A stretch of 64,000 bases of DNA from Bombilactobacillus bombi. GTDB taxonomy: Bacteria; Bacillota; Bacilli; Lactobacillales; Lactobacillaceae. Shown here in pieces: positions 24,226 to 56,173 of the stretch. The position numbers and the translations under genes are program-made. The notes below the pieces were generated by a model. That model ran no database searches, was not told where the DNA came from, and worked only from the letters and a program-made list of their open reading frames with translations. Location: the NCBI RefSeq assembly GCF_013607485.1, contig NZ_SCHP01000001.1:1-64000 (forward strand), given 5' to 3'. Position 1 is the stretch's first letter; the number at the start of each line of letters is the position of its first letter.

Positions 24226-24247
24226 AAAAAAGAGTGCCACTGCACCC
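24226..24247 (-). terminator. Riboswitch expression-platform terminator
   Basis: On the minus strand GGGTGC-AGTG-GGCACTC-like arms are followed by TTTTTT, immediately after the TPP aptamer. Thiamine pyrophosphate binding should favour this hairpin and stop transcription before thiT. Confidence 0.8.
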
Positions 24248-24249
24248 AT

Positions 24250-24332
24250 CACAAATCCCTACGCTTGTACTAACAAACAGGTTCCAAGGGTCTGAACTTA
24301 ATCACTCTCAGCTTAATAGCTCCCCTTTTGCG
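24250..24332 (-). promoter_or_regulatory. TPP riboswitch
   Basis: Classic THI-element features occur in order on the minus strand: P1 arm CGCAAA, then AAGGGGAGC, GCTGAGAGTG, AGACCC, GGAACCTG, TTAGTACAAGCGTAGGGA, and the closing P1 arm TTTGTG. The aptamer is followed directly by an intrinsic terminator, so it is a transcription-off switch for the two thiT genes. Confidence 0.93.
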
Positions 24333-24532
24333 ATGATTATTCAATTATTTATTATTAACATACACTGAATTCATTCAAAGAGCAAGCGGTTTACTTAAAC
24401 CAAGTTTTTAAATTAGCGTTATACTATGTTTAGTTGCCGTAATTTGGTACCTTGTTTCCAGAAAAACATAACTATGAAATTTTTGGTATAATTAAATTAG
24501 CAACAAGAAATTTTAGAGTTTGAGGAGAAAAT

Positions 24533-54211: not shown

Positions 54212-55855
54212 TTAATCCTTTATCCGGAGAGATACCATATTATACATACCCGATGGTCCATAATCTAAGTTATGTACCCGTTTATGAGTCAACCAAGCAG
54301 CACCATTTTGGTACAGTGGAATTACAGCTTGCTGGTTGTTGATTAAATTTTGTGCAGCAATCATGTCTTGCCAGCGCTGACTAGGATTATTGGCATCTGT
54401 AGTCATACTTTTATTAACTAAGGTATCATATTGGTTATTACTCCATTTACCATAATTATTGCTGGCGCCAGTAGTAAATAATGTTAAGTAATTAATTGGA
54501 TCGGGAAAATCTGCTGTCCAACCAGATACTACTAAGTCAAAGTTGCCATTTTCTGATCTACTGAGTCGTCCTTTAAGTGGAACATTATTAATTGTTATTT
54601 GCATCCCTGGTAATTTTTCTAGTTGATTTTGTAAATATTCATCTTGCTGTTTGGCAATATCTGAATCATCATCTAAGAGAATTAATTTAAATTTTTTATC
54701 CGTATTATTAGTTTCTGCTAAACCTAATTTCCACAATTGCTTAGCTCTCTTTAAATTATAACTTGTTTGCGCTTTACCAGTAGAACTGGTTTCCTCAACA
54801 AAATCTTTTTGTGAATTATTTGGATCAAAAGCCATATTAGTTGGAGTAAAGGAAGTGGCAGCAATCGTGCCATTACCCAATATTTTTTTAGTCAATTGCT
54901 GACGATTAATGGCAAGTGATATAGCCTGACAAATTTTAGTATTTTTAAAGATAGAATCTTTTTGCCTGTTCATCTCTAAATAAAAAGTAGAATTTTGCTT
55001 TTGAATTTTATACTCTGAAGAGTTCTTCATTTGTTTAGAAATATCTCCAGTTAATTTAGTCCGATCAAGCTTATTAGCCTGATATAAATTTAATGAAGTA
55101 GAAGAATCCTTTACAACTTGATAATTCAACTGCTGTACTTTGACTTTTTTTGCATTCCAATAATGTGGATTTTTAACTTCCTTCCAACTATTATCTGGTC
55201 CATTCCAATTGACTAACTTATATGGCCCGTTGAAGACTAAAGTTTTAGAATTAGTTCCGTACTTTTTACCCCATTTTTTTACTGCCGTCTGATTTTGTGG
55301 AAAAAACACCGCTGAGGTCATTAATTCATTAAAATAAGGTAATGGCTTATCTAAAGTTACTTGCAATGTATACTTGTCCAAAGCTTTAATTCCTAAAGAA
55401 TTAACTGGTTTTTTACCTGCTGTTATTTCTTTAGCATTAGCAATTCCTTCACAAATATAAGCATATTGAGATTTAGTTCGTGGATCAACGGTACGACGCC
55501 AGGCAAATACAAAATCTTGAGCTGTGACAGTTTGTCCATTACTCCATTGAGTATTTTTCTTTAAGGGTATAGTATAAGTTAAACCATCGTTAGTAGGTGA
55601 AACTACTTTAGTAGCTAAAGCTGGCATAATAGTTTTACCTTGATAACGATAAAGGCCTTCCATAGTATCAGTTAAAGCTTGACCACTAATCATGTCAGTA
55701 CTAACAGAAGAATCCATGGTAGGAATAACATCAGATACAAAAGTACGATAAGTGTCTTTAGGAACTTGACTTTGTTGCTTGGCCTGACAACCTGTTAAAG
55801 TTAAAGCGCTAATCATAATAGCTAAACCAATTGTCGCAAAACTTTTTTTACTCAT
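54212..55855 (-). CDS. oppA: Oligopeptide-binding lipoprotein, OppA type
   Basis: 547 residues. Lipoprotein signal with lipobox LTLTGC (Cys at about 23), then a class C (SBP_bac_5) fold. YRTFVSDVIPTMDSSVSTDMISGQALTDTMEGLYRY is the start; TYTIPLKKNTQWSNGQTVTAQDFVFAWRRTVDP near 90-122 is the family signature; FDLVVSGWTADFPDPINYLTLFTTG follows near 430. It binds extracellular peptides for an Opp ABC transporter that is not encoded nearby, so it is an orphan binding protein. A structured leader RNA and terminator lie between its promoter side and start. Ribosome site GAGAGG. Confidence 0.9.
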   Translation of the reverse strand: MSKKSFATIGLAIMISALTLTGCQAKQQSQVPKDTYRTFVSDVIPTMDSSVSTDMISGQALTDTMEGLYRYQGKTIMPALATKVVSPTNDGLTYTIPLKKNTQWSNGQTVTAQDFVFAWRRTVDPRTKSQYAYICEGIANAKEITAGKKPVNSLGIKALDKYTLQVTLDKPLPYFNELMTSAVFFPQNQTAVKKWGKKYGTNSKTLVFNGPYKLVNWNGPDNSWKEVKNPHYWNAKKVKVQQLNYQVVKDSSTSLNLYQANKLDRTKLTGDISKQMKNSSEYKIQKQNSTFYLEMNRQKDSIFKNTKICQAISLAINRQQLTKKILGNGTIAATSFTPTNMAFDPNNSQKDFVEETSSTGKAQTSYNLKRAKQLWKLGLAETNNTDKKFKLILLDDDSDIAKQQDEYLQNQLEKLPGMQITINNVPLKGRLSRSENGNFDLVVSGWTADFPDPINYLTLFTTGASNNYGKWSNNQYDTLVNKSMTTDANNPSQRWQDMIAAQNLINNQQAVIPLYQNGAAWLTHKRVHNLDYGPSGMYNMVSLRIKD

Positions 55856-55886: not shown

Positions 55887-55919
55887 AAAAAGGAGTCCTC
55901 ACCATGAAGACTCCTTTTT
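55887..55919 (-). terminator. Terminator inside the oppA leader
   Basis: On the minus strand AAAAAGGAGTC pairs with GACTCCTTTTTT. It lies between the structured leader and the oppA start, in the position of an attenuator. Confidence 0.85.
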
Positions 55920-55932
55920 AGACAAAAAGATA

Positions 55933-56060
55933 GCCTGCATGTGAGTAATCCATGCAGACTTATACTGACAGAAATAGAAAATAAGCCGGCATGAACACGA
56001 ACTGACGTCTCAGATCGCATCCATGCTGGATTCGACCTGATTTACCGGCTTCGCAGACGA
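55933..56060 (-). ncRNA. Structured leader RNA before oppA, unknown family
   Basis: On the minus strand a 7-bp stem AAGCCGG (56051-56045) / CCGGCTT (55989-55983) encloses a nested hairpin CAGGTC..ATCCA-GCA-TGGAT..GATCTG. CGTCT at 56059-56055, just outside the stem, is complementary to AGACG at 56010-56006 inside it, which allows a pseudoknot. A second hairpin CTGCATG/CATGCAG (55957-55935) follows and then the terminator. The compact domain, pseudoknot option and attenuator suggest a riboswitch or other cis-regulatory RNA. It is not a TPP, SAM, lysine, purine or T-box element by its conserved cores. Confidence 0.55.
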
Positions 56061-56173
56061 ATATTTAATTTTTCAATTAAATTAATCATTTTCTATCTCC
56101 TCAATTATCTGACTTTTTGTCATTATATAAGCAAATTATTAAAATGTCAAATCTTATTCTAATAAAATAATTA

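Follow-up and report, generated by a model that had tools for sequence, protein, structure and literature searches.

Upstream of oppA in the 64,000-nucleotide stretch of Bombilactobacillus bombi DNA analysed here (the window), an element on the minus strand is very probably a transcription attenuator of the trp/his kind, ribosome-mediated and re-specified from tryptophan to arginine or possibly to leucine. Bombilactobacillus is a genus known from bee guts. Attenuation by a leader peptide is a known kind of mechanism, and His leaders in some Firmicutes have already been reported (PMC9413887, PMC2965389).

Layout of the element upstream of oppA

The element lies on the minus strand, flanked by an amino-acid permease gene upstream and by oppA downstream. 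A promoter, a Shine-Dalgarno sequence, a 15-codon ORF, hairpins and terminators were found there:

56122..56150, minus strand: predicted promoter, TTGACA-17-TATAAT, agreeing at 12/12 consensus positions
56042..56089, minus strand: leader ORF, read from the sequence as MINLIEKLNIRLRSR and a stop codon, with the Shine-Dalgarno sequence GAGGAG upstream
56045..56050, minus strand: arm A (AGCCGG, codons Ser-Arg), which pairs with D and is predicted to sequester it when no ribosome is present
56033..56040, minus strand: arm B (TCAGGTCG), directly 3' of the stop codon, pairs with C
56010..56026, minus strand: arm C (GCATGGATGCGATCTGA), partner of B or of D'
55982..56000, minus strand: arm D'/D (TCGTGTTCATGCCGGCTTA), partner of C, of A or, as antiterminator, of E
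55951..55962, minus strand: arm E (TAAGTCTGCATG), which pairs with D as antiterminator or else serves as the 5' arm of terminator 1
55924..55941, minus strand: arm F (CATGCAGGCT) and a U-rich tail, the 3' arm of terminator 1
55887..55919, minus strand: terminator 2, a 15-bp stem with a T tail; many sister copies have a second terminator too
54212..55855, minus strand: oppA, for an oligopeptide-binding protein (SBP family 5), the putative controlled gene

The 5'UTR thus holds a short ORF with a ribosome-binding site, whose codons are ATG ATT AAT TTA ATT GAA AAA TTA AAT ATT CGT CTG CGA AGC CGG TAA (56089-56042); CGT-CTG-CGA at 56059-56051 forms the specifier region, and the peptide end is kept in all homologues read. 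An earlier sequence-only reading of this DNA overlooked the ORF with its Shine-Dalgarno sequence, the consensus promoter and three further copies of the element in the same genome. The structures that it described are nevertheless present on the minus strand: a 7-bp closing stem, AAGCCGG (56051-56045) with CCGGCTT (55989-55983), whose 5' arm consists of the last codons of the leader ORF; a hairpin nested within it, TCAGGTCG:CGATCTGA; a second hairpin at 55960-55932, itself terminator-like; and a strong intrinsic terminator at 55919-55887 ahead of the oppA start at 55855. A pseudoknot had also been proposed between CGTCT and AGACG. The two segments are complementary, but CGTCT is simply the leader codons CGT-CT(G), and of the six homologous copies of this type the window copy alone has the complement. 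The window RNA folds at -66.6 kcal/mol; shuffles gave -42.0 ± 4.1 kcal/mol (z = -6.0), and 0/200 of them folded as well.

Tandem intrinsic terminators 3' of the switch are seen in the window (55887-55962) and in many Lactobacillaceae copies. The sole Rfam family reaching its gathering score in the window is a TPP riboswitch at 24239-24336 on the minus strand (59.8 bits, cut-off 54.3). A known riboswitch or T-box at the element was set aside, as no Rfam family matched that region at its gathering cut-off; the T-box model in particular had no match in the window at gathering, nor in the element region up to E = 5, and the proteobacterial Rfam leader families had no match in the element region. 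Sub-threshold matches to a plastid 3'UTR and to PreQ1 were judged to be chance, and a tRNA-like reading of GGTCGAATCC was dropped, the window having no tRNA gene.

Mutually exclusive helices and the position of the ribosome

The six arms permit five mutually exclusive helices, A:D, B:C, C:D', D:E and E:F. The sequence-only reading had named covariation in homologues as its check, and this covariation is real: the alternative helices recur in 24 homologues and changes on both sides of a pair are present in every helix. The proportion of cells paired is 94% for A:D (changes on both sides at 3/6 pairs), 88.5% for B:C (5/8 pairs), 94.6% for the main C:D' helix (8/14 pairs), 95.3% for the main D:E helix and 96.7% for E:F. 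When partners were slid as a control, 22-44% of cells paired, as against 88-97% for the five helices. The covariation of D:E taken by itself is weak relative to shuffles (171/500 for pairs changed on both sides), which counts against an attenuator.

In a second class of the phylum, which we label clostridial by protein resemblance, the specifiers lie in or near arm A. Cognate A:D duplexes there have a mean energy of -15.8 kcal/mol, compared with -11.0 for swapped and -8.4 kcal/mol for shuffled partners; arm D has changed along with the specifier codons in arm A. The same swap inside Bombilactobacillus gave 4/9, a comparison that is uninformative because the arms are alike in that genus.

Pairing states were computed with the RNA cut at the ribosome edge, 12 nt from the A-site codon, and with E made and F not made. 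Without a ribosome, the window RNA forms A:D with a probability of 0.76 (range 0.76-0.97) and D:E with a probability of 0.00. A ribosome on CGT, CTG or CGA gives 0.96-0.98 for B:C and 0.97-0.99 for D:E, and one at the stop codon 0.96 for C:D' and 0.51 for D:E. The antiterminator and terminator helices, which exclude one another, are thus tied to ribosome position in the calculation. Once F is present, the terminator wins in every state at equilibrium; this also counts against an attenuator, and the switch must therefore be kinetic, which holds generally for such attenuators. Among 150 elements, a generic probability that E is paired upstream was higher for a stalled ribosome than for one at the stop codon by more than 0.2 in 85 cases and the reverse in 2; the stalled value was taken from whichever candidate specifier codon scored highest, a choice that favours stalling somewhat. 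As this generic measure is noisy for the Bombilactobacillus copies, helix-by-helix probabilities were used for the window copy.

From these calculations we infer a mechanism in which MINLIEKLNIRLRSR would be translated during RNA synthesis. If charged tRNA for CGT-CTG-CGA were scarce (most likely that for Arg, with Leu at CTG the alternative), the ribosome would stall over arm A, B:C would form, the free arm D would pair with E, terminator 1 would be blocked and oppA would be transcribed. If the codons were read promptly, the ribosome would reach the stop codon and cover B, allowing C:D' to pair and E:F to terminate. Without translation, A:D would hold D and termination would again be favoured. 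Two features of the window copy speak against this account: the specifier run is short, its Arg codons being separated by Leu and Ser, versus the HHHH or FFF of other leaders, and terminator 2, which follows terminator 1, has no place in the proposed switch.

Kinship with the trpB motif and specifier codons across the family

The earlier reading held that the conserved bases match no class known to it. This did not stand, as the element is related to Rfam RF04312 (38.1 bits, E 0.0015 in a 901-base search, full-length alignment 1-107), below the 59-bit gathering cut-off. Scores of the sister copies range over 49-87 bits, with 49 bits for the one that precedes trpX in the window's own genome, so we file the window element as a divergent relative of RF04312. 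The P1 (C:D') hairpin, spacer and terminator are common to both, and the two are homologous: the 5'UTR has the P1 hairpin and then a terminator hairpin with its U run, with 92.4% of cells paired over C:D' and E:F. The RF04312 model begins 3' of the leader stop codon, while the window copy includes the upstream leader. RF04312 has matches in 211/395 Lactobacillales genomes, and a model that we built from 24 Lactobacillaceae elements (R1) has matches in 268/398 genomes of the window's family.

RF04312 is the trpB motif, or SRC-39-1, of Narunsky et al. 2024. According to the parts of that paper available to us (PMC11109978), it is classed as a strong, orphan riboswitch candidate with more than 900 representatives, most often before an uncharacterised amino-acid-type ABC transporter; Fusobacteria are named among its carriers, a classic attenuator is said not to be ruled out, and those parts make no mention of a leader ORF.

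In 155/157 related elements a leader ORF with a ribosome-binding site and a length of 8 codons or more ends at the expected place, compared with 7.6% in dinucleotide-preserving shuffles of the same DNA. RF04312 begins after the leader stop and R1 after the specifier codons, so neither model selects for the sensing codons; nine of the 157 elements, all from Bombilactobacillus, were picked by a pattern that contains them. Clear false matches were removed from this set beforehand, and its counts are not independent events because many of the elements are close relatives. In the two exceptions, one element (L301) has a peptide behind a weak Shine-Dalgarno sequence and the other (L132) lacks a proper start. 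The weak RF04312 matches L298, L299 (a tRNA), L306, L308 and L312 in the second class were rejected as false, having no matching leader together with switching arms.

The specifier codons follow the gene. In Lactobacillales, Trp codons precede trpX-type genes in 76/76 cases (the Bombilactobacillus copies included) and trpB in 4/4, together 80/80, and Trp is kept even where the remaining peptide end differs (WQSR, WQNWRR, WWRR). In the clostridial class, His runs stand before hisS or hisZ-type genes (10/10), Leu runs before one subgroup of SNF symporters (8/8) and Phe/Tyr codons before the other SNF subgroup, BrnQ and TrpXYZ-like systems. Weaker Lactobacillales matches include Tyr leaders (YYYGYFG) before TrpX-like SBPs. 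Copies with different specifiers coexist in single genomes (G1163, G1169, G1217 and G000). The match between codons and the amino acid of the controlled gene is thus clear for the family; for the window copy Arg is likely and Leu possible.

Several individual leaders deserve mention. Among the weaker Lactobacillales matches, L408 and L409 have Tyr/Phe leaders (LNNYYFSYFR and LNKYYFSYFR, each followed by the stop codon) before aroE, for shikimate dehydrogenase, and L378 has the His-rich leader MFKSNVTLHHHLHR (HHHLHR, then the stop) before a basic-amino-acid antiporter gene. The product of the latter most resembles arginine-ornithine antiporters (541.5 bits, cut-off 591); judged by its leader, this permease may carry histidine. 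In another genus, and likewise among the weaker Lactobacillales matches, L358 and L360 have the Trp leader MNRCAQQLNTWQSW, ending in a stop, before an SBP_bac_5 (oppA-type) lipoprotein, a second tie of the switch to peptide-binding proteins. The leaders of SNF symporters (L288, L292, L301, L304, L331, L334, L335 and L338) divide these proteins into a 'GLGNIWRFPYV' subgroup with Leu and a 'GLGNIWMF' subgroup with Phe/Tyr, a split that amounts to a substrate prediction. A hydrophobic residue followed by Asn (LN, VN, IN or FN) stands shortly before the specifiers in 119/155 leaders, in both classes; the first codon is variable and Asn is AAT in 114/119. The window example is Leu-Asn at 56068-56063.

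The earlier reading took the element for a riboswitch with transcription attenuation. A cis-acting attenuator most likely controls oppA, and that part of the claim holds; the small-molecule riboswitch is unsupported, since the conserved upstream part is a translated peptide and the specifier codons vary with the gene while the switching architecture stays constant. A metabolite-binding riboswitch, which is also how the discoverers of RF04312 read it, would be consistent with a covarying conserved structure followed by terminators and with publication as a strong candidate (PMC11109978, in its available parts). It is most improbable nonetheless: the pseudoknot is not conserved, the codons that change from gene to gene lie within a translated ORF, and a single architecture that precedes Trp, His, Leu, Phe/Tyr and Arg-type genes fits poorly with a conserved aptamer for one ligand or ligand class.

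The conserved peptide end and the hydrophobic-Asn pair could instead belong to an arrest peptide, in which a free metabolite or a macrolide-like compound, and not low charged tRNA, would make the RLR (+X+) end stall the ribosome. A conserved Arg-Leu-Arg in hflX leaders has been likened to antibiotic-sensing leaders (PMC8632094). We regard this as improbable, because the downstream genes are for nutrient transporters and not resistance, the whole family tracks the amino-acid identity of the codons, and the sister Trp leaders have no RLR.

Specifier and origin of the Bombilactobacillus copies

The genome that contains the window (1.8 Mb in 164 contigs) has four copies, which sit before oppA, two fused type-3 SBP/permease genes and trpX, the last identified by the NCBIfam TrpX equivalog (458 bits, cut-off 390). 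Their leaders end in ...LNIRLRSR before oppA and both SBP/permease genes and in ...LNIRWQSR before trpX, each followed by the stop codon. Three congeneric species have one copy each ending in ...LNIRLRS[RQ] and the stop, before the SBP/permease gene, and B. mellifer NZ_KQ034028.1 carries the same element. Six copies in the genus read RLRS[RQ] (LR leaders) instead of RWQSR, five before arginine-type ABC transporters and one before oppA.

A functionless remnant of duplication, its tandem terminators insulating oppA from the upstream permease gene, would explain why two terminators follow one another. Against it stand a perfect promoter 3' of the permease gene, an intact ORF, the retention of all five pairings in the copies and an LR leader kept before the same transporter in three species, which make such a remnant very unlikely.

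The LR leader was seen in no other genus sampled; of the 80 matches listed for a collection-wide DNA pattern, which is too unspecific, only the one in B. mellifer is real, and as far as this listing goes LR leaders may also occur outside the genus. In a tree, LR copies group with the genus's Trp copies (82/83), the branching within the group not being resolved. Given this grouping, and with LR leaders seen in one sampled genus only, the simplest history is that the leader was duplicated and re-specified within the genus. The window copy would most simply be a duplicate of the Trp-specified trpX leader in which TGG CAA became CTG CGA.

We favour arginine as the sensed amino acid with fair though not high confidence, on computational grounds. 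Arg accounts for 3 of the last 5 leader codons (chance 2.7e-4 at the genome's codon usage), two of the three being present already in the sister Trp leader; the derived codons in the LR leaders are CTG (from TGG) and CGA (from CAA). Five of the six LR leaders precede the SBP/permease gene; among binding-protein models this transporter matches the Lys/Arg/Orn SBP TIGR01096 best, below cut-off, and its best PDB relatives (Art-type) include 4yms/4ymx and 4h5f/4i62, which we take to bind arginine. In two relatives its gene and argGH are divergent, and the operon also holds a deacylase of the ArgE/DapE family. The same attenuator could instead sense leucine, a possibility that we hold to be rather unlikely. 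CTG, a rare codon (5.3% of Leu codons), stands at codon -4 in place of TGG, exactly where sister copies have Trp; stalling on it predicts equal antitermination (D:E 0.99), and Leu-specified members exist in the clostridial class. However, true Leu leaders have runs of three or four Leu codons and this one has a single Leu codon near its end, the Arg codon gained when CAA became CGA is not required for A:D pairing, and the controlled SBP/permease is arginine-type and lies beside argGH and the ArgE/DapE-family gene.

The trp, his and leu operon leaders of the E. coli type likewise combine a short ORF of cognate codons, alternative antiterminator and terminator helices and an intrinsic terminator. 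Unlike them, the present architecture has six arms, lets the end of the ORF form an arm and is common to members with different specifiers. It resembles the T-box in its proposed sensing of amino-acid starvation, in its exchangeable specifier codon, in its placement before transporters and tRNA ligases and in its occurrence in Firmicutes. T-boxes bind uncharged tRNA directly, whereas here the ribosome would read the specifier codon. In the open-licence literature, the phrase 'trpB motif' occurs in no paper besides PMC11109978, and we found no report there of this motif as a leader-peptide attenuator, of one attenuator architecture used with several specifiers, or of oppA being preceded by an Arg/Leu version.

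We consider it likely that RF04312 is not a riboswitch but the 3' half of leader-peptide attenuators that form one homologous class, spanning Bacilli and the second class of the phylum, in which specifiers (Trp, Tyr, Phe, His, Leu, Arg) have been exchanged repeatedly to suit the gene. Such a class would be the counterpart of the T-box with the ribosome as reader; the copies before oppA and the arginine transporters of Bombilactobacillus would be a recent Trp-to-Arg re-specification. If so, a riboswitch candidate credited, in the available parts of its description, with over 900 representatives would gain a different mechanism, one that accounts for the variety of its associated genes, and a fruitless ligand search could be spared. 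Gram-positives, where T-boxes are usually credited, would have one leader-peptide attenuator architecture whose codons are exchanged between amino acids. The specifier codon would predict the substrate of many uncharacterised transporters, among them SNF symporters, TrpX-like and type-3 ABC systems, and in Bombilactobacillus a peptide-binding protein would be tied to shortage of arginine (or leucine).
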